From assembly GCA_032622095.1 (NCBI GenBank), contig CP136063.1:70967980-71031979 (forward strand): DNA of 64,000 nucleotides. Direction: 5' to 3'. This document shows positions 3,011 to 50,347 of this stretch, piece by piece. This DNA is from Siphonodentalium dalli. Lineage: Eukaryota; Mollusca; Scaphopoda; Gadilida; Siphonodentaliidae. The position numbers and the translations under genes were made by a program. The first letter of the stretch is position 1, and the number at the start of each line of letters is the position of its first letter. The notes under the pieces are model-generated. The model ran no database searches. It was not told the origin of the DNA and worked only from the letters and a program-made list of their open reading frames with translations.

Positions 3011-3176
3011 CGAAAAAGGGCCATAACTCTGTCAAAAGATATTGGACCAACATCCGGATACCATTATTTCTAGTAGACCTTAGATGCCTATATTCGCTAG
3101 AGATTTCGCGGTCCTCCTCCCATTAGTGTCTGAGTATTTCCAATTAAACAGAAAACGGCCGCAGTAGAAAAACAAT

Positions 3177-22149: not shown

Positions 22150-22160
22150 ATATACTTCCT
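22150..22160. repeat. 11-bp direct repeat at left edge of the 28-kb island
   Basis: ATATACTTCCT is the last sequence belonging to array 1. The identical 11-mer opens array 2 at 50337-50347. It lies in the left arm of the unit hairpin. It may be a target-site duplication or microhomology at a repaired break; the sequence alone does not separate the two. Confidence 0.75.
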
Positions 22161-22340
22161 GGCTACGATATAACGGATCTGACCTTACCCGGCCCGCCAG
22201 ATAGAGCGCGCAAACGCGCTGAGATCGGCGCTGTAGCTAATTACGCTCCAGATTCGGCGCGCGTATCGGAACGGTGTGCGACGAGAGCGCAGTGCTTATG
22301 AACGCATCGCTGTATGCGTGAGACTGTTCTTATTTCGGTC
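22161..22340. other. Short CpG-rich, GC-rich segment at the array boundary
   Basis: About 180 bp contain many CpG dinucleotides, including GCGCGCAAACGCGC, CGGCGCGCGTATCGG and GACGAGAGCGCAG, whereas the following kilobases are AT-rich. It abuts the truncated array directly. A GCGCG/CGCGC inverted repeat sits at 22206-22219. There is no long open frame and no recognised element. It may be the edge of an inserted element or a small CpG island. Confidence 0.5.
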
Positions 22341-24938
22341 CTATCTGGTTGTTCTGTTGAGGACATGGTATGCACGGGCTATGCATTATTCCAATAAAGA
22401 GCGTTCATCGCAAGTTAATGGTAAAATATATGTTCAAATAGGACGCCTGTTTTTTTAAATAATTTTTGACGGGCTGTCCCCGACACAACACAATGCAAAA
22501 TATATGTCTACCTTACTTTGGGCATCAATATAATACAGTATGGTTATATTGAATCATATGTTCCCGACTGTTATATGCTATTTTAACATTGCATGATGTT
22601 GTGTTGGCAAGGCAAATTTCGGAATAGTATTAGCTTGATGCCAATACATAGCATTGTATACAACCTACATGTACATCGTGACTATATTTATCACATAATT
22701 AACTCACAAAATCAGCTTCATAATTATTGGTAAGACACACGTTTAATATTAGCGCATGCGATGACGTCACGCCGAAGATTTTCCACTAATTGATAGAGAT
22801 TCTCATATTTACCCCAAAACTCCCACTTTATTTAACTAAAATGCATAACAATAAAAAAAACTAGGAGATATATAGTCAGGGGAATTTCGCACAATTGACC
22901 TCACCACCCCAAATACAAATATAAGTCTTATATCGTGTCTTTTTTTTAAACATATTTTATTGTAATATAATATTACAAGAGGGATAGGGGCACAAATTTT
23001 AACAACTTACACCCACCTCTCTCCCATTAACATTTTAACAAATACAACGTAGATGACGAAGATAACATATATACGGGATGACGTTTTGTGTGTTTCTAAT
23101 TGCTGTCTTTATGGTGGTGAGGTTAATTGTACCAAATACAAGTGTATAGAGTTATTCACCTTCCATCAAAACTAACTGACTGGCTCTTAGTCCAGATAGG
23201 TGTTTGTCTGTTCTCGAACAAATTCCTATGAGTTTACTCAATATAACACAATCATGCCTCGTGGTACAACCAGATAGTCGTATACCCAAGGGGCATCATT
23301 ATAAATCACTTTGCTGTACTATTGTAGGCCGAGTTGGGTGGTCAAAGGAAGCACATGACCCACGAACAATGGTAGTCTGTCCTCATTCCCATATTCCAGC
23401 ATACATGCCAGTGGACTGTTATCTTCTTAACATTGCATTTTGTTGAGTTGTGGGAGGCAAATATCGAAATATTATAAGTTGTATGTCGATAAAGAGCGTT
23501 TATAACTAATATACTTCCCGTGAGTGGAAACTGATTTCTAAATTACACACACACCGGATTGTCCTAGTTTGTCTGAAACTTTGGTTTCAGTCTTTCACAG
23601 TTAAATGCAGGAGAACACTATGAACATTATTATACTGATGTACATGTATACATACCATACGACCATAGTTGAATATAATTCATGTAAATATATATATTAT
23701 GCATTGTAAATAGATGCACAAATTTTGTTAATGAAATGCCGGCTGCGATGGGACACCCGGGAACAGACACGCGTCAGACGAAATTATCACTTCATGGTCA
23801 TTAGCCAATGTAATTGACACCTCCCGGTGGACCAATATAAATCGCCCGAGTGTACACAACAGATTAAAATATGCTAACAGTCAGTCAACGATGGTGTGAT
23901 ATAATAACCACACACTGGTTAAATGGTCTTGCTAATTTGCTATGATGCTGGTGGGATCAGGTGAACTGTCATGCTGCTGATATGGCGAACTGATGCTGCT
24001 AAGACCACATGACCAAATAACCAGTGTTAAATGAATATTTATAGCAATGAAGAGCGGCGATCATCATCTATACACACCCACACCAATCTATATCGAAACG
24101 GACATCGAGACAACAAGGTGACACCCGTCAGGTCACGGGCGCGTCGACAGGGATGTGAGCTATGGTAACTCCGTGTGTGTCAATAGTTGTGGGAGCAGGC
24201 CACAGCGGTGAAAGTGACAACCTTACTATAAGTGTGACACAGTGCATGTATGTCATAGGTGAGATAGAGCTGATTTCAAGGTTCAGTCATTGCAAGGCAA
24301 ACACTTTCCATCCCGGTTAAGTTATCCTGCTAATTTGATCTGATGCTGGTGGGTCCTGCTGACTTGCCATTGTGCTGGTAGTGACAAATATTGGTGTTAA
24401 GAAATTGTTCCGTTATTGTATATATATCCAGACACTGCAACATGTATGTTCCGAAAGAATAACGGTACATTTTCTTAACAGAATCAGTTTACCATATCAG
24501 CATATTTCAACTCCGTGGTATTCCCACCAGCATCGTAGCAAATCAACAAGACTACTTAAATTCGGGATATCTCACTGACGTACATGTGCACGTACGCATC
24601 GACATTAACATTTGAGTTTGTTTATGTGTCTATATTACATTTTACTGTTTAATTTAGGTTTTGTGCGCCCATATGGTATTATAGAAATATATCACAAGAT
24701 TACATAAAATAAAAGCTTCCTCCATATAGGCGGCATATGAATTATTTTAATAAACGCCATGCTGTCTCCAAATTTATGCGAATGTCACGCAGCGCGGACA
24801 TACGTAGTTTGCATGCAGGAGTTACTGTTCCTTTAGATATATAAAATAAAAGTTAATTCCACTTATCCCACAATATTACGAGGCAATTTCACAATTATAT
24901 TATTTATATGTCGTTCCTTTAGAATACTCTCATTATCC
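22341..24938. other. AT-rich non-coding stretch with weak internal duplications
   Basis: No gene could be supported. Two old direct repeats are visible. About 22565-22645 resembles 23408-23490 (GACTGTTAT, TTAACATTGCAT, GGCAAAT.TCG.AATA). About 23918-23980 resembles 24318-24380 (TGCTAATTTG, TGATGCTGGTGGG). The motif ATAAAGAGCGTT occurs at 22394 and 23490, the latter just before ATATACTTCC at 23508, a half-hairpin-like match to the array hairpin. Short frames here look random. Confidence 0.5.
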
Positions 24939-25579
24939 TCATCTCCACCCATTGAACCATGTCGTAATCCCTATGTCTGTCAGTATTTTTATTTTCGGAA
25001 ACGGCCGAATTAAAATATCTTCCAGCCACATCGATGAATCCAAGATCATCCTTCTTGATTCGCCATTTTCGACTGCATATTTTAACGAAGAGTATGTGTC
25101 GTACTTTGTCATCAATTTAGAGCACTTCAATACAAATCTGTGGAACTAATCACGCATGATTGTGGTTGTTTTGTTTGTATGACGACAACAGCATGAATAA
25201 TATGGATACCAATGTCCTAGTGGGATATATTCTGCAGGTATCGATCATACGCGATGCCAATAATTATTTAAAAAAAAAATACATTTACGATTTGAGATAG
25301 ACGGGATCAGTTGTGACTGTGTACGTACATGTACATATGTGGATGTTAATATCAGCAAACTATATATAGGGACTATAACATTGCATAGCAATATACTGAC
25401 CTATTAGTTTTAAACCCAGAGTGTTTGCCGCCATCCATGGCGTACCACCCGACGGTGTATACAAACACAGCCATATAGAAGGGAATCATAATTCCTATTA
25501 ACCGCCAGGGCAGATCTATAGCGCACACTATGGGCTGAGACAATTTGAGATATCTGCCGCCGCCCCTAAGGCGCGCCAT
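24939..25579 (-). CDS. Possible small two-exon gene, single-pass membrane protein, function unknown
   Basis: This is a weak candidate. On the minus strand an ATG at 25579 opens a 59-codon frame with an N-terminal basic segment and one hydrophobic stretch (about residues 27-48). The frame reaches a donor-like G|GTCAGT at 25401/25400. An acceptor-like TTCCACAG ends at 25138. Joining 25579-25401 to 25137-24939 keeps frame: 179 plus 199 nt make 125 codons plus a TGA stop. The codon split across the junction gives Arg. The predicted tail is mixed polar with no motif I recognise. The start context has G at +4 but C at -3. Frame agreement alone would occur by chance one time in three, and I know no homologue. 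It could be spurious or part of a longer gene. Confidence 0.2.
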
Positions 25580-28406
25580 CGGATTATATTAGTAATGGAT
25601 GGGCTAACACGCGCCGGCAGGCGATCTCACTGCTCAAGATAGATATTCCCTCCTGTTTGGCTTTTGTAGTAAATCGCCAAATGTATGCGTGACACAATGT
25701 GATACATACATATTTACCCCAGTTATTTTAATTTATCAGACGGTCACCATATCACCAAGTTACAACGACAATATTTCTTCAATCGGATAATGCATCTTAA
25801 AAAGCACTTAATCGGATAATGCATCTTTAAAAGCACTTAACATTAACAATGATTAGCGCACCACATATAAATGTACATTCATGGCACCGACAAACAAGAT
25901 TTCATGTTCAACACTATGAAAGCGTACTGAAAACATACAATTCGTAATTATGGTGATAAATCACGCAAATAATCCATCGATATACTCAACATCTGCTTAT
26001 GTATGCATTGCATGAAATCAATGGTTATGACCAATGACAAATAGAGTGCGTCGCCCCCTGTCATGGATGCGATCAACCAGCATCGTGTACCTTACACCGT
26101 TGCAGGGACGTGGCAACAGTATATACACTGAAAATATTGTTGACTTAACTGTTTGCTCAACAATTTGACTCCTATTACTCTTTGCTAAATATGACGTGTA
26201 CCGCCTCCTTTGGTCTGATCTCACCCTCGCGCGCGCTTCGGCTACTCCATTAGCAACTTTCCTCCATTATGGAGAGCAAATATATATTTTTTGAACATTC
26301 AGGGGCGAGTAATTCGCTTACAAAATTTTCATGGCATCGTTATCGGGGTGACATGTGACCATGCCATGTAAATTTGGTCGCGTTCGGAGATAATTCACTG
26401 CAACCTGGTGTGCAACCATAAGTGGTAATACGGTGCACCATCTTCGATTTCTTTCAAGCTACAATATGACTTACATGTGGAACAACACTTTTCGCACCTA
26501 TTCAATTTGAAGCCAAGTAGTTTGCATATAAAGCACGAAATGGTTGAATTTTCGAAACCTTATCAAACTGAAATGTACAGCAAATTACGAGATACAAAAC
26601 ATTTGAGTTTATGTCGACCAATTTGATCAGAATTATTTGGTGTCTAGCAATGGTTTTGGTATATCGACACCATTGCAAATCAATGTACATGTACATAGAT
26701 GCGTGGATAAGTAGAGGTTAAAGCGTATATCGTAGCCATTTAACAATATAGAACGAAATCGCTGTTCATTTGACAGGTCATATATAATTGAATAGATGTA
26801 TATTGTGTGTGTATGTAAATGGGAAAAAAACATTACTGCTATTGTATTGTGTTTATTTCAGGCAAGATATGCCCATATATAGTCATAATCCAACATATAA
26901 TTACGAATTTTCGATATACTATATAGGTATGATTTCTTAACATAAGTTAAAGATACGGGCGGCGTTGGTGGTGGGTATGCTGTTAAAATAATCACATCCG
27001 TCAAAAACCGCCATAAACAGAAGGATTAGTAAAAATATAGAGCCTTTGTTCTTATGTCAATCAGAAATATGGCATAAACAGTATGTTATTGTCATTTTCC
27101 CCTTTTGTTGTGTAAACGAAAGCAAAAACGTTACGTTTCCTGGTTTTTTTTTATGTCCGGATATGGTAAACACAAAGAGCGTTATTTGTTAAGGTTTTCC
27201 TGATATGGAAATAATAAAGAGCGTTTATATCATTTGTGTGTGTTAACCAATATAATTGCACTGTGTTATATAAACTTAAGCACAACTTCTGTAACACGAG
27301 CAGTCTCTTGTTTACGTACAACATCGTACGTCTTGACGACAATATACTATCTACGCGCTGATTATGTTTGGCATCGAGCGGAACTGTATATATTTTTGTG
27401 TTCCTTCTGTTAATGCCGATTTGGACAAATATAAATATTTCTGCAACAAACGCCGCCCGTGCCTTTAGCCTCTGGTGTTCCTACTAGCAAGTCCACTCGT
27501 CTGCTTACAGTGTTAAATGTATTCCAAGCTACATCGACCAACACTTATAATACACATGAAATATTGAGCAACAGTATAAAACTAGGCGGCTATCCGGGTG
27601 GATATGCTGATCTATTCGACTTGACACTGATATTAACACACATGGTGGTCAAATGCAGTGGATTTCTGCCAGTCATTATTCATCATCAAAGAAGCATGGA
27701 ATTCCGTGCTGTCTGTATAGGCCAGAAATTCCCACCAGATGATACATTACGTAATACGAACGCCCCGATGCTTGAAGGTTGCTCAATGTGTTGAGCAGAT
27801 GTTTCGGCATTGGAACGCCGGGCTTTATTAGCTTCCGTTTTGTGTCTGTCTTTCATGAAAGTTATCCGACCTCCTGATATTTTAATTATCACTTAAGAAA
27901 CTAGATCGCACTATCGACTTCAAATGAGCCTTCTCAAATTAAATTATATTGTGTATATATGTCACAAGTTAACTTTTGTATATGTATATACATGTATTGT
28001 ACAATAATGGTCCCCATATTTGGAGGAATAAATATCTCTCTCGTGGTATGGCATTACACCTGAATGGTAAGCCCTAATGAATTAAACCAAACGGATCAGA
28101 TTAATGGCAATGACATATAACAGGCAAGTATATTATTTATATTGTAAATACTGTTCATATATTATAATGTATCATTTGAAAATTTATGATGTAAGTCATG
28201 CATGTTCATAAATGTAATATATGTTATCTTAATATCTATGTATTATTGGTCGATAAGATTAAACAAATTGAATTGACCGGTGGAATAGAAAGTAGATTGC
28301 AGGACTGGGAAGTATATCATATATAGGCAAATTTGAGAACGTTCTAAACATTCATAAAATGGCAGTTAAAACAGTTTTAAAAAAACTCTTGCCAGTGTGA
28401 CTCCCA
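25580..28406. other. AT-rich non-coding stretch
   Basis: I see no supportable gene. Short frames on both strands lack family motifs. Items present are a 29-bp tandem duplication (25781-25838), two AAAGAGCGTT motifs at 27175 and 27216, and many ATG-poor AT-rich runs. The longest plus-strand frame (27459-27794, 111 codons) has no recognisable domain and no splice context that I trust. Confidence 0.5.
25781..25838 (+). repeat. 29-bp tandem duplication, two copies
   Basis: AATCGGATAATGCATCTT begins at 25781 and again at 25810. The two 29-bp copies differ only in the A/T run before AAGCACTT. This looks like a local slippage or microhomology duplication with no evident function. Confidence 0.9.
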
Positions 28407-28424
28407 CCCCCCCCCCCCCCCCCC
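28407..28424 (+). repeat. Poly-C tract (18 C)
   Basis: An uninterrupted run of 18 C sits in a wider C-rich stretch (28402-28433). Length is likely uncertain in sequencing. On the minus strand it produces a glycine run in an otherwise hydrophobic 82-codon frame, which I do not call a gene. Confidence 0.95.
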
Positions 28425-28718
28425 TCCACCCCCATATTGCGTGCAAACAACAGTCGCTATCTTGGAACAGCATACCACAACTATAAGCACTGATCTCAGG
28501 TTATAATATGAAAGGATCAATTGTGTTAATGCCATACTGACTAATATTATTGCCAAAATTAATGCTGTGCCAGCGTAACACAACACAGCCGACCCATAAC
28601 TATAATTATACAGTATTTCTCGCATTGTCGTTTATTTGTATGCCGTGATAATGGGTGGCTGAACACAACAGTCGGTTAAGGGTACTCAATCCGAATTAAT
28701 GCTCGCAAATATGTCGAT

Positions 28719-28720
<2 letters not shown>

Positions 28721-28784
<64 letters not shown>
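28721..28784. repeat. (TA)32 microsatellite
   Basis: A perfect 64-bp alternating TA run follows CGATGG and precedes GCTTTATTAACC. It lies downstream, on the minus strand, of the LINE fragment at 29171-29841. It may be that element's terminal microsatellite tail or an independent slippage tract. Confidence 0.97.
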
Positions 28785-28785
<1 letters not shown>

Positions 28786-29170
28786 CTTTATTAACCTCCA
28801 TTAACGGAGATCATACATCAATACATTGTATGTGTTGTATAAACGAATTGGAGCGTTTTGTACACATAAAGGTGAGAGTGGTATTTAAAAACATTATTTA
28901 GTATATATACAAACAACATTTGAGCATAGAAAATGGCGGCAAAAAGTAACAACACTGAATTCCAGTACATTACAGCAGTATGAGCCGTATGGTCTATGTA
29001 CCATATTAGAGTTTGATCACATATAGATAAGGAAAGTGTATATCGCATGCGTATAGATGTTGATCTTATGTTCACTAAGCCATGCTCCTTTTCACCCTCA
29101 AACATTTTAATGTCAACAAGACTTGCTTTTCTGGCAGGCAGCAAGCACACGCAAGCAATCGGGTATAGTC
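28785..29170 (-). other. Downstream flank of LINE fragment A, possible 3' untranslated part
   Basis: Sequence between the (TA)32 tract and the stop codon of LINE fragment A. A 127-codon minus-strand frame spans much of it (28818-29201) but shows no motif and overlaps the LINE frame. If the TA tract is the tail, this is the LINE 3' untranslated region; that is inference. Confidence 0.35.
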
Positions 29171-29841
29171 TTAACGGGCATTGTTTCGTAAAAGTTGGCA
29201 TCCTTTGTACATGAATTTCGCGGCGAATGTGAGAATATCTCCCCGAGCATTGATGACAACGAGTGGAGGAACGAAGGCTGTGCCGCCGATTAGGAAGTCA
29301 CATAGATGGTTTTGCGAGAGTGAATCGAGAAACATAAAACATTCTACCCCAAAGAAGTCAATGGTGATTGACCAGAAACTATATCTCAATTGATGCATGG
29401 CTGGCACATTACATGTAAATAATACATGTTCAATTTCTTTGTGATACGTTGATCTGCAGGCACCGCAATTCGAGTTGTTATTGAACATCGATCTGGCTTT
29501 TCAAAAAATGTTGTTGTTGGAATCGGATGATATGGGGACCATCGAATCGGATTGAGTACCTTTAATCTGGGTGGAGGAAATAAACCGGGGATCAATCAAC
29601 GTTCTTCCTCAGAATATTGCTTCATTGCCGCGAGATATGCCACTACTGTGATCTCAATGGCGAGGCATGACAATTGTGCCAGTATGACAACTGAAGCGGC
29701 ATTTCAAAAAATGTTGTTGTTGGAATCGGATGATATGGGGATCATCGCATCGGATTGAGCACCTTTAAATTGGGTGGAGGTAATAATTCGGGTTCAATCC
29801 ACGTTCTTCCTCAGAATATTGCTTCAATGCAGCGAGGAATT
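29171..29841 (-). pseudogene. Non-LTR retrotransposon (LINE) 3'-end fragment A, broken
   Basis: The open part (29171-29488) carries a zinc-knuckle-like motif: Cys8, Cys11, His16, His21 and Cys26 (C-x2-C-x4-H-x4-H-x4-C). This is followed by an aromatic-rich stretch and a DILTFAAKFMYK segment. That order is typical of the region after the reverse transcriptase domain in many invertebrate LINE proteins (zf-RVT-like). A TGA stands just before the first ATG, so the frame is cut off from the polymerase. Further upstream (about 29600-29700) another frame reads SCLAIE..VVAYL, matching a segment of fragment B (residues 32-44), which shows that the two fragments belong to one family. The polymerase and endonuclease domains are absent. 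Family membership is from motif recognition only. Confidence 0.55.
29498..29841 (-). repeat. 203-bp offset direct duplication inside LINE fragment A
   Basis: TTTCAAAAAATGTTGTTGTT begins near 29499 and again near 29702. About 138 bp after each start are alike (ATCGGATGATATGGGGA, GGTGGAGG, TTCTTCCTCAGAATATTGCT) with roughly a dozen differences. The copies are therefore not a fresh duplication. It interrupts the LINE reading frame. Confidence 0.85.
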
Positions 29842-30064
29842 ATGATATGATATTTATTAGCATAAAACACTCATGTGAGCCGTATGCATTACATAATAAT
29901 AAGACATATAATTTACACATACATAGTTCATATAATAAACTTTCCACATATTCATACTACAGTTATACAATGACTTAGTAGAGCTCAATAATATAAGCAT
30001 GCAAATAAACTGTATGCAGGCCTATGATATCGTGTGGAATAGAAATTAATTATTAATTTATTCA
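29842..30064 (-). other. 3' untranslated region of LINE fragment B (inferred)
   Basis: Read on the minus strand, the stop codon at 30067-30065 is followed by about 220 AT-rich bases. They end GGCTCACATGAGTGTTTTAT, then GCTAATAAATATC and a short ATC-rich run, after which sequence of fragment A begins. An AATAAA signal close to a short simple-repeat tail is usual for LINE 3' ends, so this junction is probably the original 3' insertion end of copy B. Confidence 0.45.
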
Positions 30065-30670
30065 TCAACTTCGGGCTTCTTTTCTCATTTCAAAGAATTC
30101 TTTGAAAGCTCGACTGATCACATTACTTGTATTTGGTTGGTCGTTTCGCATTATGTATATGCATTTTGAGATACTACTGGCCCTTAGAAATTTAGTGATT
30201 CATATAGGCCTTTTTCTCAATTTGTCGTATTTGATACAATGGAGAACAAAATGCTTCTCGTCTTCCACTGAGTTAGTATTGCACATCTTGAATATCCGAT
30301 CATTGGCTGGCGTCGGTGGGCGTTTGTGTTGGCCTTTTTCTATTTCTAATGAATGACAGCTGATTCGAAGTCTACATAATTGTTCACGGTCTTTGATAGA
30401 AATTGTATGTATTAGATATGGTTCGAGTCGAAAAATGGTTTTGAATTGTTTGTATGGCCTTCGTTTACTGTGTGGATCGTCTGCACTGATAATATACTTA
30501 TTTATATATTCATCCTTCAATCGTTCTGTGACGAGATTAATATATGCCACTACTGGGGTATCAATGGCGAGGCAGCTGCCAGTATGCCCTGTGGAGCAGC
30601 TTGAAACTAAATCAGTTACATTAATTAGTCCTGAATAGACAATAATGATTTGACGGTTAAGGCGCTGCAT
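30065..30670 (-). pseudogene. Non-LTR retrotransposon (LINE) C-terminal fragment B, with in-frame stop
   Basis: The minus-strand frame from 30670 reads 156 codons to a TGA at 30202-30200. The same frame then continues for 44 more codons to a second TGA at 30067-30065, which I take as the natural end. Diagnostic features are the block LRISCHSLEIEKG (residues 101-113), then RIFKMCN (125-131), then His140-x4-Cys145. In related LINE proteins the residue at 127 is normally the first zinc-binding Cys; here it is Phe. That substitution, the internal stop and the lack of any polymerase domain mark it as dead. An upstream in-frame TGA precedes residue 1. It lies in the same orientation as fragment A. 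Confidence 0.65.
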
Positions 30671-32299
30671 GACGTCGCTTCTAATGGCTCATACTTTGGT
30701 CTCCCAGGGTCGATGAAAAAATTATAATAAGCTGATTGTGTCATAACGTGAACAGACGAAAGGCCAAATTTCAATTTGGTCAGAACGTCACAGTCTTTGG
30801 TCAAACGCCACCTATTTTAATCACAGATTCTGACCCGCTTTCCGTCATCCAAATAGGTATAATTTGGGGAAACTATTATGTCATGTACAAAAGACTTATT
30901 CGCGATATCGAATTTAGAAGCAATAAAGAGCGTTTCTATGCCATTTGTATGCCATTTGACTGATTTATGTGAATATGTTAGAATAGGGCCCTTCGGTCAT
31001 TTCACATTTAATAATTAAAGCTGAAATGTCTAGAGTAAGCACGCGTGACATTTTTTCTCTCGAAACAACTCCAAAATCCGACTCGAATAAATAACCAACA
31101 ACCACATGCGTGTAATTGGCCCATCGTGCCACTTATCCCACCCGATCACATCAAACCGAAGCCAATCAGGTTTATATGCGCTTATTTTATTAGAGATATG
31201 ATAAGGTACGGGAGCTTCCACGTTCGTTCTGACTTCACATCGCCATCATTGGCTCATTTAGTAACTTCTACAGTCGTTCCGGGTCTGTATAATCAGGGGG
31301 AGTTTCCTGCAATATGTCCATTAACCACTAAAAAGTTATTGAAGAACACACTGATAAAATACACATATTCATTGCAAGTGGCAGAAACACAACGAAACTG
31401 ACTTTTGTTCCTTCTGGCTATTTTCCCGTGAAATAAATATAGGTATAAATACACGAAATACTATTATGATGACTATATATGCCGTAAACAAACGACTTAT
31501 TCTAGATATAGAATATAGAAGTCGAGATCAGCACGAAGCAGTAAAAAGCGTTCGTTGCTAACACATTTATGGTATGGATACAGATAGGAAATTTTAATGA
31601 TTTTTGTCATGTAGTTAGACACCCGATCAAATACCACTCACTCCTTTTAAAATTGTTATTTCAAATTTATTTCTATGTATATAAAGCACAGGACGCTTTT
31701 TCTTGAAACAAACCCAAAATCCGACCTACCCAAATGGCCGACAACCAAATGGGTGCAATTGGCCCAGCGTACCAATTATCTGCCCCATGACAGATTTTGT
31801 CAAAATGTTAGAATAGGGCTCTTCTTTCGTTACATATTTCGTCAACAACATCATGGTGGCCGCGGACCAAGGTTCTACGCTAAATGCCAAATAGGGTCAA
31901 GCAATTGGTATGTTATAGGTTGTTTCTAAGCCGAAGACACATCAAAACACACCCGATCAACTCAAACACCAGGGGGGGGTTCAAATATCGCACCCATGCC
32001 ATTTATGGCCCCCTTGTACGATTTAGTGAAATCAAAGGATGCTGATGGATGGCCCCACGACGATGCGCGTGCCACTATGCCCTGGGGATCCGCGTTACAC
32101 TAAATCAAATACATTAACTAATCCCTTAGTGTATCATTTGCCAATTAAGCCGCGGCATAGCATTAATTGTAATCTCTCATGCTCAGGTTTCCCAAAAGTC
32201 GATGGAATAATTCAGTTGAAACCGTGTACATTGAGTTGTCGGTATTATTCTCATAACGTCACACCGATAGAAATGTCACATTTCAGAACTGTGTCTGGC
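30671..32299. repeat. Degraded composite repeats related to those at 38.2-45.3 kb
   Basis: Several old copies of modules seen again further right. The AATAGGGCCCTTCGG phrase near 30983 and its variant near 31812 match the 483-bp repeat. About 31195-31295 (ACTTC.AC.GTCG.TCCGGG.CTGTATAATCA) matches 38280-38375. About 31030-31170 and 31680-31800 match each other (AAAATCCGAC, GTAATTGGCCC/GCAATTGGCCC). About 31440-31640 matches 42355-42560 and 45110-45290. About 32014-32287 matches 42002-42272 closely. Short frames on both strands are incidental. Confidence 0.7.
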
Positions 32300-38255: not shown

Positions 38256-39215
38256 GTCTCTCACCAAGACAAATATGTTAAGGTATGGCAACTTCCATTT
38301 TCGTTCTGGCCTTTCATCGCCACGATTGGCGCATTTGTTGAACTTCCATAGTCGATCCGGGACTGTATAATCAAACTCAAATCGACTTACATATTATAAG
38401 TCATTATTATTACGAAGTTGAATTTTTGTGGGATCTTTTTATTTTTGGGACCAACCAACACAGGAAATCATTCGAAGTGCTAGTATAGAATATCTTTTCG
38501 AAAGACCAATTTATGTCAAAATATTACAATAGGGCCCTTCGGCCAATTCACATCTGACCACTAAAACAATATGACGACCGTCGCCCAATGTTGTTCGAAT
38601 AAGACCAAATATGGTCACACAAATGGTTCCTTATGGTGCCACTAAGTCGAGGACAATTCAAAACCACACACGCACCCGAGTGGGTTAAACTGGGGTATGG
38701 ACCAGTTTCGAGAAAGGTAAGGATTTCAACCGATTTGGGTCTCTCACCAAGACAAATGTGTTAATGTATACAACTTCGATTTTCGTTCTGGCCTTTCGTC
38801 GCCACGATTGGCGCATTTGTTGGACTGCTATAGTCGATCCGGGACTGTATAATCAAACTCAAATCGACTTAAATATTATAAGTCATTATTATTACGAAGT
38901 TGAATTTTTGTGGGATCTTTTTATTTTTGGGACCAACAAACACAGGAAGTCATTCGAAGTGTTAGTATAGGATATGTTTTCGAAAGACAAATATATGTCA
39001 AAATGTTACAATAGGGCCCTTCGGCCAATTCACATCTGACCACTAAAACATTATGATGACCGTCGCCCAATGTTTTTGGAATAAGACCAAATATGGTCAA
39101 ACAAATGGTTCCTAATGGTGCCCCTAAACCGAGGAAAATTCAAAACCCACTCTATCATCTCAAACGCTATCTAATGAATGCATATATACTTCTTTCTGTC
39201 TCTCCCCAAGACAAA
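38256..39215 (+). repeat. 483-bp repeat, copies 1 and 2 in tandem
   Basis: GTCTCTCACCAAGACAAAT starts at 38256 and 38739, 483 bp apart. Content in order: ACTTCCATTTTCGTTCTGGC, TCGCCACGATTGGCGCATTT, TCGATCCGGGACTGTATAAT, GTGGGATCTTTTTATTTTTG, CAATAGGGCCCTTCGGCCAA, and a tail that includes one short 140-bp-satellite piece (GGTATGGACCAGTTTCGAGA). The satellite piece is therefore part of the repeating unit. Copy 2 ends differently, through CCCACTCTATCATCTC into satellite. Confidence 0.92.
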
Positions 39216-40319
39216 TTTGATAAGGCTGGTGGGTGGCCCGCCAGAAATACCCCATAGAAACACCACGATCCCCCACCTTTCACCTTTCACCCACGGGGGT
39301 GCTACCCCGAGGGGGTGAACATTGGGTATAGACCATTTTCAAGAACCGTAGGGGTTTCGACCGATTTGACTGGATGGGTGGGTGGCCCAAAATAAACACC
39401 GACACCCCACCCATCCATCACCCCGGGGTGCCACCCGAGGGGGTAAACATGGGGTATGGACCAGTTTAGAGAAAGCTAAGGGTTTCAACCGATTTAACGG
39501 CATGGGTGCATGGCCCTCCCAAATACTCCAGAGAAACACCCCGACCCCACCCTTCACCCACGGGGTGCTACCCCAAGTGAGTGAAAATGGAACAAGGATC
39601 ATCTTCGAGAACCGTAGGGGTTTCGACCGATTTGACTGCATGGGTGGGTGGCGGGTGGGTGGCCCGCCCCAAATACCACATAGAAACTCCCCAACCCACA
39701 CCATTACCCACGGGGGTGCCACCCCGAGGGGGTAACAATTGGGTATGGACCATTTTCGAGAACAGTAGGGATTTCGACCGATTTGACGGATGGGTGGGTG
39801 GTCTGTCCCAAATACTCCCTATAAACAACCGACTCCCTTCCAATCACTTCAGGGTATGGACCATTATCGAGAACGGTAAAGATTTGGACCGATTTGACGG
39901 CGTGGGTGGGTGGCCCGTCACATATACCTCACAGAAACACCCCAATCCCTGCCCAAACACCCAGAGTGGTGCCACCCGAAGGGGTGAAATGGGGTATAAA
40001 CTATTTCCGAGAACGGTAATGATTTCGACCGATTTGACGGCATGGGTGGGTGGCCCCAAATACCTCATATAAACACACCGACACCCGACACCCATCCATC
40101 ACCCCGGGTGTGCCACCCCGAGGGGTGAACATGGGGTATGGACCCTTTTCGAAAACCGTAGGGATTTCGACCGATTTGACGGCTTGTGGGGGTGAACCAC
40201 CCCAAATACCCCATAGAAACACCCGAACCCCCATCCATCACCCTCGGGGTGTGCCACCAAGTGGGATAAACTGGGGTATGGACCAGTTTCGAGAAAGGTA
40301 AGGATTTCAACCGATTTGC
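39216..40319 (+). repeat. GC-rich satellite of about 140 bp, block 2
   Basis: Same satellite as block 1. Some units carry the variant GAACCGTAGGGGTTTCGACC, also present near 32353, 37948 and 41713, so a subfamily is spread among blocks. The first part (to about 39553) is near-identical to 41591-41935. Confidence 0.9.
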
Positions 40320-41590
40320 GTCTCTCACCAAGACAAATATGTTAAGGTATGGCAACTTCCATTTTCGTTCTGGCCTTTCATCGCCACGATTGGCGCATTT
40401 GTTGAACTTCCATAGTCGATCCGGGACTGTATAATCAAACTCAAATCGACTTACATATTATAAGTCATTATTATTACGAAGTTGAATTTTTGTGGGATCT
40501 TTTTATTTTTGGACCAACCAACACAGGAAATCATTCGAAGTGTTAGTATAGGATATCTTTTCGAAAGACCAATTTATGTCTAAATATTACAATAGGGCCC
40601 TTCGGCCAATTCACATCTGACCACTAAAACACAATATGACGACCGTCGCCCAATGTTTTTCGAATAAGACCAAATATGGTCACACACATGGTTCCTTATG
40701 GTGCCACTAAGTCGAGGACAATTCAAAACCACCAACGCACCCGAGTGGGTTAAACTGGGGTATGGAACAGTTTCGAGAAAGGTAAGGATTTCAACCGATT
40801 TGCGTCTCTCACCAAGACAAATATGTTAAGGTATGGCAACTTCCATTTTCGTTCTGGCCTTTCATCGCCACGATTGGCGCATTTGTTGAACTTCCATAGT
40901 CGATCCGGGACTGTATAATCAAACTCAAATCGACTTAAATATTATAAGTCATTATTATTACGAAGTTGAATTTTTGTGGGATCTTTTTATTTTTGGGACC
41001 AACAAACACAGGAAGTCATTCGAAGTGTTAGTATAGGATATGTTTTCGAAAGACAAATTTATGTCAAAATGTTACAATAGGGCCCTTCGGCCAATTCACA
41101 TTTGCGTCTCTCAGCAAGACAAATATGTTAAGGTATGGCAACTTCCATTTTCGTTCTGGCCTTTCATCGCCACGATTGGCGCATTTGTTGAACTTCCATA
41201 GTCGATCCGGGACTGTATAATCAAACTCAAATCGACTTAAATATTATAAGTCATTATTATTACGAAGTTGAATTTTTGTGGGATCTTTTTATTTTTGGGA
41301 CCAACAAACACAGGAAGTCATTCGAAGTGTTAGTATAGGATATGTTTTCGATAGACAAATTTATGTCAAATTGTTACAATAGGGCCCTTCGGCCAATTCA
41401 CATCTGACCACTAAAACATTATGATGACCGTCGCCCAATGTTTTTGGAATAAGACCAAATATGGTCAAACAAATGGTTCCTAATGGTGCCCCTAAACCGA
41501 GGACAATTCAAAACCCACTCTATCATCTCAAACGCTATCAAATGAATGCATATATATACTTCTTTCTGTCTCTCCCCAAGACAAATTTGA
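40320..41590 (+). repeat. 483-bp repeat, copies 3, 4 (truncated) and 5
   Basis: Starts at 40320, 40804 and 41106. Copy 3 to copy 4 is 484 bp, whereas copy 4 is cut to 302 bp, stopping after CCTTCGGCCAATTCACAT and running straight into copy 5 at TTTGCGTCTCTCAGC. Copy 5 shares its special ending with copy 2, so the piece starting at copy 2 was duplicated as a block. Confidence 0.92.
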
Positions 41591-41935
41591 TAAGGCTGGT
41601 GGGTGGCCCGCCCGAAATACCCCATAGAAACACCACGATCCCCCACCTTTCACCTTTCACCCACGCGGGTGCTACCCCGAGGGGGTGAACATTGGGTATA
41701 GACCATTTTCAAGAACCGTAGGGGTTTCGACCGATTTTACTGGATGGGTGGGTGGCCCCAAATAAACCCCCCGACACTCCACCCATCCATCACCCCGGGG
41801 GTGCCACCCGAGGGGGTAAACATGGGGTATGGACCAGTTTCGAGAAAGCTAAGGGTTTCAACCGATTTAACGGCATGGGTGCATGGCCCTCCCAAATACT
41901 CCAGAGAAACACCCCGACCCCACCCTTGCCGTAAC
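41591..41935 (+). repeat. GC-rich satellite of about 140 bp, block 3
   Basis: About two and a half units, near-identical to 39224-39553. The match ends within CCCCACCCTT, after which the left copy continues as satellite and this copy enters unrelated sequence (GCCGTAACATATCAGG). Confidence 0.88.
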
Positions 41936-42655
41936 ATATCAGGCAAGAACCATCACAATACCGGCGATATAGAACGACTTCCGATGTAAAAGTTCCTTAA
42001 TTGTACGATTTAGTGAAATCAGAGGGTGTTGATGGCTGGCCCCATGACGATGCGCGTGCCACTATGCCCTGGGGATCAGCGTCACACTAAATCAAATACA
42101 TTAACTAATCCCTTAGTATATAATTTGCTAATTAAGCCGCGGAATAGCATTAATTATAATATCTCATGCTCACGTTTCCCAAAATCGATGGAAAAATTCA
42201 GTTGAAACCGTGTATATAAAGTTGTCGGTGATATTGTATGAACGTCACACCGATGAACATGTCACATTTCAGTTGGATAAAAGTGTCATAAGTGTATGAT
42301 CAAAACGCCACCTATATATTAGTCACGTATTCTGACTATCTTCATGTGATCAAAACTGCTATAAATACACGAAATACTGTTATAAGGACTGTATCTACCA
42401 TACACGAACTGCAAATTCAAGATATCGAATTTAGAAAAGTCGAGCTCAACACGAATTAATAAAGAGCGTTAACTGTTAACTTGTTTATGGTATGGATACA
42501 GAGCGTTAATTGCAAAGATCTGAGAACAACATTGGTCATGTAGCTAGACCCAAGGCATCAAATCCCACCAACAGCCCCACGCATCTTAAAACTAACATTT
42601 GACTTCCATAGTCTTTCTGGGACTGTCAATGAATCCATTTCTGACAAATTTGATA
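41936..42655 (+). repeat. Duplicated composite segment, second copy
   Basis: 42002-42272 matches 32014-32287 at high but imperfect identity (GATGCGCGTGCCACTATGCC, TACATTAACTAATCCCTTAG, AATTAAGCCGCGG). Then 42300-42560 matches 45060-45290 and, more weakly, 31440-31640 (AAACGCCACC, GTCACGTATTCTGACTA, ATACACGAAATACTGTTAT, AATAAAGAGCGTTAACTG, GATCTGAGAACAAC). From 42560 to 42655 there is a remnant with a CTTCCATAGTC...GGGACTGT phrase from the 483-bp repeat. No gene. Confidence 0.8.
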
Positions 42656-43279
42656 TCCGACTAACACCCTAACCCCCATCCCTCACACACGGGGTGTACC
42701 ACCCGATGGGGTTAAACTTGGGTATGGACAAGTTTCGAGAAAGGTCAGGATTTCAACCGATTTGACGGCATAGGTGGGTGGCCCTCCAAAATACTCCATA
42801 GAAACACCCCGATCTCCACCCATCACCCCCAGGGGGTTAAAATCGAGTAAGCACCATTTTCGAGAAAGGCAAGAATTTGATCGATTTGACGCCATGGTGG
42901 GTGGCCCACCCCAAATAGCCCACAGAAACAACCCGACCCCACCGATCACCCAGAGGGGGAGGAAATGGGGTATGGACCATCTTCGAGAACATTGGTGGTA
43001 TCGACCGATTTGACTGCTTGGGTTAGTAGCCGGCCCCAAACACCACCTAGAAACACCCCAACCCCCACCATCACCCACAGGGTTGCCACCCCGATGGGGT
43101 AACAATGGGTTATGGACCATTTTCGAGAACAGTAGTGATATCGACCGAGTTGACGGCATGGGTGGGGGGCCCACACCAAATACCCCCATAGAAATACCCG
43201 AACCTCCATCCACCACCCTCGGGGGTTAAACTGGGGTATGGACCAGGTTCGAGAAAGGTAAGGCTTTCAACCAATTTGC
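42656..43279 (+). repeat. GC-rich satellite of about 140 bp, block 4
   Basis: About four and a half units of the same satellite, with GGGGTATGGACCATCTTCGA and CATAGAAACACCCCGA anchors. The minus-strand frame of 177 codons here (42683-43216) arises from the repeat and repeats its own motif three times; not a gene. Confidence 0.88.
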
Positions 43280-43520
43280 GTCTCTCACCAAGACAAATGT
43301 GTTAGGGTATGTAAACTTCCATTTTCGTTCTGGCCTTACATCGCCACGATAGGCGCATTTGATGGACTTCCATAGTCGATCCGGGACTGTATAATCAAAC
43401 TAAAATCGACTTAAATATTATAAATCATATTACGAAGCCGATGACAATTCAAAGCCCACTCTATCATCTCAAACTCTATCAAATGCATCCATATATACTT
43501 CCCAAGACATATTTGATAAG
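43280..43520 (+). repeat. 483-bp repeat, copy 6, internally deleted
   Basis: Begins GTCTCTCACCAAGACAAATG at 43280 and follows the repeat to about 43437 (TATTACGAAG). It then jumps to the late part of the copy 2/5 type (CCGATGACAATTCAAAGCCC, near 43438), skipping roughly 220-240 bp, and ends at ACATATTTGATAAGG before satellite resumes. Confidence 0.85.
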
Positions 43521-45047
43521 GTCGGTGGGTGGCCCGCCCCAAATACCGAATATGAACACCGCGATCCTCCCACCCACCACTAGGGGTGACCATGGGGGTA
43601 TAGATCATTTTCGAGAACCATAGGGATTTGGACCGATTTGATGACATGGGTGGGTGGCCCCTAAATAGCTCATATAAACACCTGACACACCCACTCATCC
43701 ATCACCCCGGGCAACCCGAGGGGGGTGAACATTGGGAATGGACCATTATAGAGAACGGTAAGAATTTCGACCGATTTGGTGGCCGGCCCCAAATACCCCT
43801 ATAAACACTCCGATCACCCACCCATCACCCAGGGGTGCCATCCCGAGGGGTGATAATGGGGTAAGAACAATTTTCAAGAACGGTAAGGATTTCCACCAAT
43901 TTGAGGGCATGCATGTGTGGCCCGCCCCAAATACCATATAGAAACAGCCCGACTCCCACCTATTACCCCGGGGTGCCACCCCGACGGTGTGAAAATTGGG
44001 TATCGACCATTTTCGAGAACGGTAATGATTTAGGCTAATTTGAAGACATGGGTGGGTGGTTGGATGCCCACCCCAAGTACACCCTTGGACCATTTTAATG
44101 GGGTATGGACCATTTTCTAGAACTGTAAGGATTTCGACCGCCCAAAACATCACAAATAAACACCCCGACCGCCACCTATCACCCCGGGGGGTGCCACCCA
44201 ACGGGGTGAAATTGGGTATGGACCATTTTAGAGAACGGTAAGGACCACTTAGAAACAGCCGACCCCCATCCAACACCTCCTGGGGGTGCCACCCCGAGGG
44301 AGAGAAAATGGGGACCATTTTCGAGAATAGTAGGGATTTCGACCGATTTGACGGCATGGGTGGGATGCCCGCCCGAAATACCTCATAGAAACACCCGACA
44401 CCCCCCCCCCCCCCACCCATCACACCCGCCGTGTGTCACCCAAGGTAAGGGTATGGACCATTTTCGAGAAAAGTAAAGATTTTGACCGATTTGACGGCCC
44501 AAATACCCTCTAGAAACACCCGAAGGGGTGAAAATGGGGTATGAACCATTTTCAAGAACGGTAAGGATTTCGACCGATTTGACGACATGGTTAGGTGGCC
44601 CACCCTAGAAACACACCGACCCTCACCATCACCACCGAGGGTGCCACCCGAGGGGGTGAAAATGGGGAATGGACCATTTCGTTCGAGAACGGTAAAGATT
44701 TCGACCTATTTGACGGCATGGGTGCGTGATCCGCCCCAAGTACCCCCTAGAAACACCCCGACCCCACCCATCACCCACGGGGGTGCGTCCCCGAGGGGTC
44801 AAAATGGGGTATGGACAATTTTCGAAAACGGTAATTATTTCGACCGATTTGATGGAATGGTTGGGTGGCCCGCCACAAATACCCTTTAGAAGCACTCCGA
44901 CCCACACCCAACACCTCCGAGGGTGCCAACCTAAGGGGGTGAACATGGGGTTTGGACCATTTTCGAAAAAGGTAAAGATTTCTACCGATTTGACGGCATG
45001 GGTGGGGGGGGGGGGCGCCACAAGTACCCCAAAGAAACACGCGACCA
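43521..45047 (+). repeat. GC-rich satellite of about 140 bp, block 5
   Basis: About ten units, several shortened or fused (for example near 44090-44140 and 44490-44530). Homopolymers C14 (44401-44414) and G12 (45004-45015) occur inside units. The long minus-strand frame (43746-44423) is a repeat artefact. Confidence 0.88.
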
Positions 45048-45300
45048 AACGTCAAAACGCCGCCGATATTAGTCACATATTCTGACTAGCTTCCTGTGAT
45101 CACAATTGGTGTACATACACGAAAATACTGTTATACGGACTGTATCTGCCATACACGAACGTCATATTCAAGGTATATAATTTAGAACAGTCGAGATCAA
45201 CACAAAGCTATAAAGAGCGTTCACTGTTAACATGTTTATGGTACTGATACAGATCGTTAATTTCAATGATCTGAGAACAACTTTTGTGTAATTGACCCAT
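45048..45300 (+). repeat. Composite-family fragment interrupting the satellite
   Basis: Matches 42290-42540: TATTCTGACTA, TACACGAAA.TACTGTTAT, CCATACACGAAC, CTATAAAGAGCGTTCACTGT, GATCTGAGAACAAC. Flanked on both sides by the 140-bp satellite, entering at CGACCAAACGTC and leaving at CCATCGTGAAAATGGGGTAT. Confidence 0.85.
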
Positions 45301-46755
45301 CGTGAAAATGGGGTATGGACCATTTTCGAGAACGGTAATGATATCGACCGATTTGATGAAATGGTTGGGTGGCCGCCCAAAATACCCTTTAGAAACACTC
45401 CGACCCACACCAATCCTCTCCAGGGTGTCAACCCTAGTGGGTGAACATGGGGTATGGACCATTTTCGAGAAAGGCAAGGATTTCGACCGATTTGTCGACA
45501 TGGATGGGTGGCCCGCCCCAAATATCCCCTAGAAACACCTCGACCCAACCACCAGCTCCGGTGGGTGCCACCCGAGGGGTGAAAATGGGTTATGGACCAT
45601 TTTCATGAACGGTAACGATTACGACCGATTTGACGACACGGTTGGGTGGCCCACCCCAAATGCCCCTAGAAACACACCGACCCTCGCCCATCACCACCGA
45701 GGGTGCCATCTGAGGGGGTAAGCATGGGGAATGGACCATTTCGAGAACGGTAAAGATTTCGACCGATTTGACGGCATGGGTGCGTGACCCTCCCCAAATA
45801 CCCCCTAGAAACACCCCGACCACACCATCACCCACGGTGGTGCGTCCCCGAGGGTGTGAAAATGGGGTATGGACCATTTTCGAGAACGGTGATGATTTCG
45901 ACCGATTTGACGGAATGGTTTGGTGGCCGCCCAAAATACCCTTTAGAAACACTCCGATCCACACCCATCACATCCGGGAGTGCCATCCCGAGGATGTGAA
46001 CATGGGGATTGGACCATTTTAGAGAAATGTAAGGATTTCGACTGATTCGACGGCATGGGTGGGGCCCCGTCCCAAATACCGCAAAGAAACATCCCGATCC
46101 CCCCTATCACCCGAGGGGGTGAAAATTGGGTATGGACCATTTTCGAGAACGGTAATGATTTCGACCGAAATGGTTGGGTGGCCCGCCCCAAATACCCTTT
46201 AGAACACTCCGACCCACACCCATCACCTCCGACACCACGACCCAAATACAACAACACCAGAGGGTGACACCCGTGGGTGAACATGGGGTATGGACCATTT
46301 TCGAGAATAGTTAGAATTTCGACCGATTTGATTACATGTGTGGGTGGCCCACCCGAAATATCACTAGTAACACCCCGACGCCACACATCCGCTGGGGTGC
46401 CACCCCGAGATGGGAAAATAGGGTATGGGCCATTTTCGAAAAGAGTAAGGTTTTCTACCGATTCGACTTCACAGGGGGGGGGGGTCCACCCCAAATACCA
46501 CATAGAAACACCCCGACCCCACATATCACACCAGGGGTGCCACGGTAAGAATTAAGACCGATTTCATGGCATGTGTGGGTGGCCCTCACCAAATACCCCT
46601 AGAAATACGCCGACCCCCGACGCATCAACCCGAGGGGGTTCCACCCAATGGGGTGAACATGGAGTATGGACCATTTTTGAGAACGGTAAGGATTTCGGCT
46701 TTCCCCAAATACCCCCATATGAACACCCCGATACCACCCATCACCCCGGGGGTAT
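45301..46755 (+). repeat. GC-rich satellite of about 140 bp, block 6
   Basis: Last block, about ten units. A G11 run lies at 46474-46484. The final unit ends CACCCATCACCCCGGGGGTA and passes without spacer into the 549-bp array at CAACCCCTCCCC. Confidence 0.9.
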
Positions 46756-49700
46756 CAACCCCTCCCCAACGCATATCAGATGATTCGCCTCGTTCGTCAT
46801 ACCTACCGAAAATACTCCTGTGACAAATGGAACCGACGGAAATGAAGAATATGGTGCTAAACATATTAAAATGGCGACTAGGGGTGTTTTTTATTATTGA
46901 GTTATAACATGTAAGTTGCCTTTTTACGAGACATAAATCCCGCTGTGAGCTCTCTTGGGATCCCATGACAATTATCCTGTCTGTGCTACCATGCGTGTCA
47001 ATTAGCTTAACCGATTTAAAGAAAAAAAATTTATTTTGGATGTTTTTGGTTTGCCGGAAAATCAATTTCTTGCCAGGCGACGATATATCGTCGTCTACTT
47101 ATTCTCCGTTTTCTTCAACCCCCTCTCACGGCCGCATCCCTGTCGATTTTGTGCTTGATTTCAGCTCGAATATTTCTAGTGCATCCCTTATATTGATAGC
47201 ATAGCACCAGTCAGGTAAACGCGCCTCAATTTGTATGGATACCGAGCCTGGAACGGTCTGGAACGACCTAGAATGGAATTTCGTCTACCTTTCTCCCTAT
47301 CTTTCAACCCCTCCCCTACGCAGGTCAGATGATTCGCCCCGTTCGTCATACCTACCGAAAATACTCCTGTGACAAATGGAACCGACGGAAATGAAGTATA
47401 AGGTGCTAAACATATTAAAATGGCGACTAGGGGAGTTTTTAATTATTGAGTTATAACATGTAAATTGCCTTTTTACGAGACATAGATCCCGTTGTGAGCT
47501 CTCTTGGGATCCCATGACAAATATCCTGTCTGTGCTACCATGCGTGTCAATTAGCTTAACCGTTTCAAAAACAAAAAAAATCATTTTTGTGTTTTTGGTT
47601 TACCGGAAAATCAATTTCTTGCCACGCGACGACATATCGTCGTCTACTTATTCTCCGTTTTCTTCAACCCCCTCTCACGGCCGCATCCCTGTCAATTTTG
47701 TGCTTGATTTCAGCTCGAATATTTCTAGTGCATCCCTTATATTGATAGCATAGCACCAGTCAGGTAAACGCGCCTCAATTTGTATGGATACCGAGCCTGG
47801 AACGGTCTGGAACGACCTAGAATGGAATTTCGTCTACTTTTCTCCCTATCTTTCAACCCCTCCCCTACGCAGGTCAGATGATTCGCCCCGTTCGTCATAC
47901 CTACCGAAAATACTCCTGTGACAAATGGAACCGACGAAAATGAAGTATAAGGTGCTAAACATATTAAAATGGCGACTAGGGGAGTTTTTAATTATTGAGT
48001 TATAACATGTAAATTGCCTTTTTACGAGACATAAATCCCGTTGTGAGCTCTCTTGGGATCCCATGACAAATATCCTGTCTGTGCTACCATGCGTGTCAAT
48101 TAGCTTAACCGATTTAAAGAAAAAAAATTCATTTTGGATGTTTTTGGTTTGCCGGAAAATCAATTTCTTGCCAGGCGACGATATATCGTAGTCTACTTAT
48201 TCTCCGTTTTCTTCAACCCCCTCTCACGGCCGCATCCCTGTCAATTTTGTGCTTGATTTCAGCTCGAATATTTCTAGTGCATCCCTTATATTGATAGCAT
48301 AGCACCAGTCAGGTAAACGCGCCTCAATTTGTATGGATACCGAGCCTGGAACGGTCTGGAACGACCTAGAATGGAATTTCGTCTACTTTTCTCCCTATCT
48401 TTCAACCCCTCCCCTACGCAGGTCAGATGATTCGCCCCGTTCGTCATACCTACCGAAAATACTCCTGTGACAAATGGAATCGACGGAAATGAAGTATATG
48501 GTGCTAAACATATTAGAATGGCGACTAGGAGTGTTTTTTATTATTGAGTAATAACATGTAAATTGCCTTTTTACGAGACATAAATCCCGTTGTGAGCTCT
48601 CTTGGGATCCCATGGCAAATATCCTGTCTGTGCTACCATGCGTGTCAATTAGCTTAACCGATTTAAAGAAAAAAAAATCATTTTGGATGTTTTTGGTTTG
48701 CCGGAAAATCAATTTCTTGCCAGGCGACGATATATCGTCGTCTACTTATTCTCCGTTTTCTTCAACCCCCTCTCACGGCCGCATCCCTGTCAATTTTGTG
48801 CTTGATTTCAGCTCGAATATTTCTAATGCATCCCTTATATTGATAGCATAGCACCATTCAGGTAAACGCGCCTCAATTTGTATGGACACCGAGCCTGGAA
48901 CGGTCTGGAACGACCTAGAATGGAATTTCGTCTACTTTTCTCCCTATCTTTTAACCCCTCCCCAACGCAGGTCAGATGATTCGCCCTGTTCGTCATACCT
49001 ACCGAAAATACTCCTGTGACAAATGGAATCGACGGAAATGAAGTATATGGTGCTAAACATATTAGAATGGCGACTAGGAGTGTTTTTTATTATTGAGTTA
49101 TAACATGTAAATTGCCTTTTTACGAGACATAAATCCCGTTGTGAGCTCTCTTGGGATCCCATGACAAATATCCTGTCTGTGCTACCATGCGTGTCAATTA
49201 GCTTAACCGATTTAAAGAAAAAAAAATCATGTTGGATGTTTTTGGTTTGCCGGAAAATCAATTTCTTGCCAGGCGACGATATATCGTCGTCTACTTATTC
49301 TCCGTTTTCTTCAACCCCCTCTCACGGCCGCATCCCTGTCAATTTTGTGCTTGATTTCAGCTCGAATATTTCTAATGCATCCCTTATGTTGATAGCATAG
49401 CACCATTCAGGTAAACGCGCCTCAATTTGTATGGACACCGAGCCTGGAACGGTCTGGAACGACCTAGAATGGAATTTCGTCTACTTTTCTCCCTATCTTT
49501 CAACCCCTCCCCTACGCAGGTCAGATGATTCGCCCCGTTCGTCATACCTACCGAAAATACTCCTGTGACAAATGGAATCGACGGAAATGAAGTATATGGT
49601 GCTAAACATATTAGAATGGCGACTAGGAGTGTTTTTTATTATTGAGTTATAACATGTAAATTGCCTTTTTACGAGACATAAATCCCATTTTGAGCTCTCT

Positions 49701-50050
49701 TGGGATCCCATGACAAATATCGTGTCTGTGCTACCATGCGTGTCAATTAGCTTAACCGTTTCAAAGAAAAAAAAAATCATGTTTAATGTTTTTGGTTTGC
49801 CGGAAAATAATTTTTTTGCCACACAGCTTGGAATCGGCGACGACATAACGTCGCCTACTTATTCTCCGTTTTCTTCAAACCCCTGTCACGGCCGCATCCC
49901 TGCCAATTTTGCGTTGGAATTCATTGTTGATACTCATAACGAACCCCTTCCGTCGATAACGTTGCATTTTTCCGAATAAAGTGTCTCGTTGCCTGGATAT
50001 CGAACCCGGAACGGGCCGGAACGACCCAGAACGGATGGAAAAACGGCGAA
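46756..50050 (+). repeat. 549-bp tandem array, six copies
   Basis: Units begin at CAACCCCTCCC at 46756, 47305, 47854, 48403, 48952 and 49501, exactly 549 bp apart. Copies 1-3 share AATGGAACCGAC and CACCAGTCAGG; copies 4-6 share AATGGAATCGAC, and 4 and 5 have CACCATTCAGG, so there are two subfamilies in blocks. Copy 6 is like the others to about 49795 and then diverges strongly. Perfect palindrome CGACGATATATCGTCG occurs at 47078-47093 and in copies 4 and 5. Because 549 is divisible by 3, frames of 79 and 105 codons recur on the two strands; each is stopped within its unit and none resembles a known protein. Confidence 0.95.
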
Positions 50051-50336
50051 TTTCGAGTGACAATGCAAATTTTACTCGGGAGAAAACAATTTCAGGAAGT
50101 TTTTTTTTCGAAACGTTAGTTAGGTCGAGTTTGATGCTCTCCATCAACGGTTTTTTTTTTTTCAGTCTGCCATTGTTCGTTCCGGAACGAGTAGGTACTT
50201 CCACCCTCGTTCCGGACTTTCGGACCCCCGGAACGACCGGAAAAAATAATTTGCCGCCAAAACGGATGCCAGTTTGTCACACTTATTTTTCGAGTTCTTT
50301 CAGATTCCGTCGAAACCCCGAAGTTGGAAGTTCTGT
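50051..50336. other. Spacer between the 549-bp array and 1725-bp array 2
   Basis: Contains T9 and T14 runs (50100-50108 and 50150-50163) and repeated CGGAACGA/TTCCGGA phrases (GTTCGTTCCGGAACGAG, GGACCCCCGGAACGACCGG) related to the GGAACGG..GGAACGACC phrase near the end of each 549-bp unit. It ends GTTGGAAGTTCTGTAT, directly before the array hairpin; the GGAAGT piece resembles a right hairpin arm. No gene. Confidence 0.5.
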
Positions 50337-50347
50337 ATATACTTCCT
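50337..50347. repeat. 11-bp direct repeat at right edge of the 28-kb island
   Basis: ATATACTTCCT, identical to 22150-22160. Here it is followed by the rest of the hairpin (TGGTTACACCATGG) and array 2. The base before it is T (TCTGT), not the array's A, so the match to the array begins exactly here. Confidence 0.75.

Follow-up and report, generated by a model that had tools for sequence, protein, structure and literature searches.

Evidence for a giant, apparently non-autonomous mobile DNA element that inserts at one position of a satellite hairpin in Siphonodentalium dalli

Large mobile DNA is usually coding, either viral or transposase-bearing, or else scattered. R1/R2-type LINEs occupy one fixed position in a tandem target; they encode a reverse transcriptase and an endonuclease, are a few kilobases long and are commonly truncated at the 5′ end. 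Bacterial insertion sequences that reside on REP palindromes are ~1–2 kb long and bring their own transposase. Helitrons have TC...CTRR ends and Helentrons insert at TT, while Helentron-associated elements, which are much smaller than the element described here, insert at short T-rich sites rather than at one fixed satellite position. Starships have target-site direct repeats and a site preference. Cryptons are DNA transposons with a tyrosine recombinase (YR); they have short direct repeats, reported as 4–6 bp and regarded as the substrate of recombination, lack inverted repeats and are proposed to have a circular intermediate (PMC3212892).

We analyzed a 64,000-bp window (C3:70967980-71031979) of the S. 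dalli genome, which comprises 2.227 Gb in nine contigs. Within this window, an island interrupts a single 1725-bp satellite array with the register kept and with base-exact edges (Table 1). The lag-1725 match starts at 3005 and has its last base in the first array at 22160 and its first base in the second array at 50337. The 11-mer ATATACTTCCT occurs once per satellite unit and, in addition, at both island edges (22150-22160 and 50337-50347). Satellite units on either side of the island are exactly 1725 bp long and carry 0–3 mismatches to a common consensus. The arithmetic 1736 = 1725 + 11, given in a preliminary description of this DNA, is therefore valid, and the in-register island with an 11-bp repeat at its edges that it reported was borne out to the base by the lag analysis. 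The point at which the island splits the unit lies within the hairpin ATATACTTCCTTGGTTACACCATGGAAGTATAATAATA, whose fold as DNA is strong (z −5.3). Every 1725-bp unit also contains a 294-bp internal tandem duplication whose copies are 89% alike (e.g., window 3594-4143).

We interpret the island as a single copy of a site-specific mobile DNA element that is giant and apparently non-autonomous. Its insertion point is the 5′ foot of the hairpin, a conserved structure that closes every unit of a ~1.7-kb satellite family. We assign this reading a probability of about 0.8.

Table 1. Features of the window (positions are those of the 64,000-bp stretch)
Feature	Position	Strand	Description
Satellite array 1	3005..22160	+	11 complete 1725-bp units and some partial ones; terminates in the hairpin left arm; defined by lag-1725 identity
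Left junction copy of ATATACTTCCT	22150..22160	+	ATA common to target and element; remainder, CACTTCCT, element-carried in older copies
Probable giant site-specific mobile element (island)	22161..50336	+	28,176 bp here; of 40 paired copies, 30 measure 26-39 kb
Element left body	22161..32000	+	AT-rich, mostly non-satellite, without detectable protein domain
Element middle	32001..46550	+	Degenerate ~138-bp minisatellites plus 302/482-bp tandem repeats
549-bp tandem repeats, ~6, near element right end	46755..50035	+	More in the C9 copy
Right terminal segment	50036..50336	+	Terminates in GTTGGAAGTTCTGT; inverted GGAAGT 5 bp from the boundary
Complete target hairpin ATATACTTCCTTGGTTACACCATGGAAGTATAATAATA	50337..50374	+	4,686 exact genome copies
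Satellite array 2	50337..64000	+	Continues array 1 in the same register; the two flanks agree at 99.9% over 1,264 bp

The preliminary description had asked whether the island occurs as a unit elsewhere in the genome, and it does. A search of the 2.227-Gb genome with junction patterns detected ~83 left and ~62 right junctions, while the reversed control pattern gave 0; chance falls far short of explaining this recurrence. Forty left junctions pair with a downstream right junction on the same strand; the intervals between them measure 8.6–74 kb (median 32.1 kb), and 30 of the 40 fall within 26–39.1 kb. The first 1.2 kb of the island is present in at least 40 copies at 97–100% identity, every one beginning at base 1 or 2, and for the last 1.2 kb, at least 22 matches cover the full length at 98–100%. 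Full read-through covered the window island and two other copies, one of 32 kb on C7 and one of 39 kb on C9, the remaining copies being known by their ends. Both of these copies are homologous to the window island essentially end to end, with the order conserved; the left body is 99.1% identical to that of the C7 copy across ~10 kb. Most of the length difference among the three is due to the minisatellites and the 549-bp repeats, and repeat copy number in the middle of the element differs among element copies. What had been described as a block of foreign heterochromatin is instead a repeated element, present in dozens of copies with fixed ends, a fixed internal order and variable satellite copy number.

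Nearly all copies occupy one target position in one orientation. The first 15 left and 15 right ends that we read all had the flanks AACAATAYACTTCCT and ATATACTTCCTTGGTTACACCATGG. A search by inner end, with no flank in the pattern, placed 72 of 73 left ends and 62 of 66 right ones at the identical position of the identical hairpin; the exceptions (one left and four right) may be mutated or real off-target sites. Only a handful of unrelated single cases have any other neighbor before or after the target word, and the element is therefore the sole recurrent insert among thousands of hairpins. This bears on a suggestion in the preliminary description, that a break at the hairpin had been repaired with duplication. 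Random break capture would be expected to yield varied inserts, yet only this family recurs at the site. The fixed site, the fixed orientation and the single recurrent insert argue against break capture, which we rejected, there being no second recurrent insert at the site. The hairpin was absent from the viral contigs in which we searched for it, and no Rfam families were found within the window.

Our in-register comparison covered eight loci with both flanks, supplemented by short flanking sequence from 14 additional left ends and 5 right ends. At five of the eight loci, the window included, the left and right flanks form one in-register array (99.7–100% over ~1,260 bp), with implied unit lengths of 1725, 1728, 1729, 1730 and 1733. 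A sixth locus, at C4:112.83M, fits nearly as well, with an implied unit of 1941 and a flank match of 99.0%. At the remaining two, both on C2, no in-register match links the flanks on the two sides of the island. These two C2 copies, C2:184623002 (+) and C2:109325337 (−), lie in opposite orientation, are 100% identical over 4.2 kb around the left ends, left flank included, and therefore include a duplication or conversion event; the right-flank arrays of the same pair are only ~85% alike.

Compared between loci, the flanks are mostly 80–93% alike, with few pairs closer, whereas the left 2.7 kb of the element has a mean identity of 99.0% between copies. In one pair of copies, the element is identical over 2.7 kb and the flanks are only 83% alike. 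This disparity points to independent, recent, site-specific insertions in which the element moved without its flanks. Judged from these identities, many copies are independent insertions into different satellite subfamilies, and the activity is recent. The earlier proposal that the block was inserted into an existing array is strongly supported, because the block has been inserted repeatedly at one site in different arrays.

The ends of the element read [C/T]ACTTCCT[G/C]GCTACG ... GTTGGAAGTTCTGT. The preliminary description had regarded the 11-bp repeat as a target duplication. The repeat is present, but an older subfamily shows that most of its left copy is carried by the element. In this subfamily the left junction is AACAATACACTTCCTCGCTACG and the left copy of the repeat reads ATACACTTCCT. 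We read 200 bp leftward for 14 left ends that belong to the older subfamily or are related to it. The C-bearing left junction occurs in at least 8 distinguishable satellite contexts, the intact target has a C at only 14 places, and the right junctions of older copies remain ATATACTTCCTTGG. Together, these observations show that CACTTCCT at the left is element-borne. Older copies thus bring their own left-hand ACTTCCT, and the overlap between target and element is at most ATA (3 bp). Young copies, including that in the window, have a T at the variable left position, so that the shared run looks 11 bp long. The sequence fits two readings of ATA equally, a target duplication of 3 bp and a short overlap used in recombination.

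A search for a terminal inverted repeat gave nothing above chance (local score 7.0; shuffle mean 7.5). There is an inverted 6-bp motif at both ends, with ACTTCC 1 bp inside the left end and GGAAGT 5 bp inside the right end. The ACTTCC motif also forms the arms of the target hairpin and is a putative binding site for the enzyme that moves the element.

No open reading frame in the window island exceeds 229 amino acids, and the longest ones lie in minisatellite frames. A six-frame Pfam search of the entire island found no transposase, integrase, reverse transcriptase, helicase, tyrosine recombinase or viral domain; at this sensitivity, the LINE pieces and the transposon previously described inside the island are unconfirmed. 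Weak Pfam matches in repeat regions (DUF3980, AcrIIA4, Ketoacyl-synt_2 and others) were rejected. As no single stretch passes alone, their scores are sums over tandem repeats. The element is probably non-autonomous, since it has no detected protein domain, although it may contain a gene that is split by introns or has diverged strongly. Maverick/Polinton elements carry a viral polymerase, an integrase and a capsid protein and have a 6-bp target-site duplication, whereas this element has no such domains and its duplication is not 6 bp. In the genome as a whole, the tyrosine recombinase family PF00589 has at least 150 matches, many of them in intact frames of ~600–660 amino acids. None of the matches listed lies within 100 kb of the listed element copies. 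At C2:39406686-39413067, three tyrosine recombinase matches with a spacing of exactly 3,089 bp are probably tandem YR-coding units.

Hairpins also close other repeats. Window positions 1-2820 contain blocks of ~500–850 bp, 82–88% alike, that end in hairpins of the form ATACTTCC-N-GGAAGTATAATAATA; these hairpins are located at window 1310, 1365, 2757 and 2976. Different satellite bodies have a common hairpin tail, a pattern suggestive of mobility in the satellites themselves. At C3:5395147, C5:162829281 and C6:196184318, arrays of the 1.7-kb unit break off at unit position 38, where the hairpin tail TAATAATA ends, and differing sequence follows. On C3 and on C2, arrays of this unit start at unit position 1250, preceded by one and the same upstream sequence. 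Hairpin arrays are also found at the very start of contig C1 (C1:1631-348874), and the satellite may therefore be subtelomeric there.

We considered other origins for the island. In target-primed retrotransposition, a site-specific LINE enzyme would act in trans. Site-specific LINEs are numerous (R1, R2 and others), and the hairpin together with TAATAATA resembles a LINE/SINE tail. However, non-LTR retrotransposons have a reverse transcriptase, a 3′ tail and frequent 5′ truncation, whereas the element is 28–39 kb long, shows no 5′ truncation bias (inner ends number 73 on the left and 66 on the right), has no tail at its right end and yielded no reverse transcriptase domain in the six-frame Pfam search of the island. 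The similar counts of left and right ends, the lack of a truncation series and the lack of a tail argue against this route, which we regard as very improbable. We give still less credence to an old resident island around which arrays spread, either by array invasion or by joint duplication of the island and its flanks. The C2 pair described above, in which the 4.2 kb shared at 100% includes the left flank, indicates that some copies do duplicate with a flank. At most loci, however, similarity is 80–93% for the flanks and ~99% for the islands, and within a single locus the left flank agrees with the right at 99–100% in six of the eight cases. The least probable explanation is an assembly or scaffolding artifact, or the chance joining of two unrelated arrays. 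Although satellite arrays are difficult to assemble, identical junctions occur at 83 left and 62 right places, and different arrays are in register at most of the loci tested.

Two rivals are more serious. An HUH/Y1-type rolling-circle enzyme would read the folded single-stranded hairpin, cut at its 5′ foot and join the element there. The exchange point does coincide with the 5′ foot of a hairpin that folds strongly (z −5.3), and similar hairpins terminate many repeat bodies in the genome. Nonetheless, we consider this mechanism unlikely: the right end of the element has no such hairpin of its own, its termini match neither the TC...CTRR ends of Helitrons nor the TT insertion of Helentrons, and inner left ends reveal no tandem element copies, 72 of 73 being single satellite junctions. 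Helitrons and Helentrons have a 3′ hairpin at their own end and insert at AT or TT without duplication, whereas here the hairpin is that of the target and the ends differ. We rate as less probable again a DDE transposon, PIF/Harbinger- or CACTA-like, with a 3-bp (ATA) target duplication and a strong site preference. ATA comprises the sole duplicated bases in the older subfamily, in which the left end starts with CACTTCC; CACTA and PIF/Harbinger elements make 3-bp target-site duplications, but a recombination core would look identical. Moreover, strong site specificity of this kind is rare among DDE elements, and the right end is TTCTGT rather than AGTG. CACTA and PIF/Harbinger elements have terminal inverted repeats, whereas in this element the inverted repeat does not extend beyond the 6-bp ACTTCC, which is offset by 1 and 5 bp.

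As target-primed retrotransposition and break capture are both disfavored, what remains is integration at the DNA level by a site-specific enzyme acting in trans. On our preferred reading of the island as a site-specific mobile element, the element would move as double-stranded DNA, probably with a circular form. The predicted joint of this circle, GGAAGT-TCTGTATAY-ACTTCC (equivalently, GTTGGAAGTTCTGTATA-YACTTCC), would recombine with the target AACAATA/TACTTCC. The trans-acting enzyme would recognize ACTTCC at both element ends and in both hairpin arms. Among the assembled inner left ends, the head-to-tail joint is absent or very rare. Because the ends are Crypton-like and the genome contains many intact YR frames, our leading guess for the enzyme is a tyrosine recombinase, Crypton- or DIRS-like, though we put this class at somewhat below even odds.

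The element shares features with several described systems. With R1 and R2 it has in common one fixed position in a tandemly repeated target, but it has no detected reverse transcriptase domain; with REP-targeting insertion sequences it has in common specificity for a dispersed palindrome. Like Cryptons, it lacks long terminal inverted repeats and has a short direct repeat at both ends. Unlike known Cryptons, which encode a YR, it is 28–39 kb long, has no detectable coding capacity and is locked to one satellite hairpin; it might be the non-autonomous partner of such an element. In the older subfamily the core does not exceed 3 bp, compared to 4–6 bp in Cryptons (PMC3212892), and young copies have an 11-bp repeat. 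Giant size is shared with Starships, the giant YR elements of fungi (PMC12134995). Starships carry a captain YR gene and a cargo of genes, whereas we found no gene in this element, which resides in a 2.2-Gb genome. Helentron-associated elements of oysters are non-autonomous and contain internal tandem repeat arrays (PMC7492417), as does the element.

Our search of open-access papers returned no described match for a ~30-kb gene-less element that is fixed to a satellite hairpin and has ends that mimic the hairpin arm, and a text search of the literature with the hairpin sequence returned 0 papers. In function, the element resembles known site-specific elements; it is its anatomy that lacks a described match in these papers. 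Tentatively, it may represent an undescribed class of giant (~30 kb) mobile DNA that lacks genes, targets one specific satellite hairpin and has ends that mimic the hairpin arm. The enzyme supplied in trans might also act on the hairpin tails of the satellites, in which case the satellites and the island would form one mobile system.

A ~30-kb gene-less element that selects a single position, with thousands of satellite hairpins to choose from, implies that this genome has a strong, unrecognized site-specific recombination activity. The system supplies natural attachment sites, together with empty-site controls in each array. It also provides a direct approach to the spread of large satellite-rich blocks in heterochromatin, for which the usual accounts invoke only unequal exchange or eccDNA.
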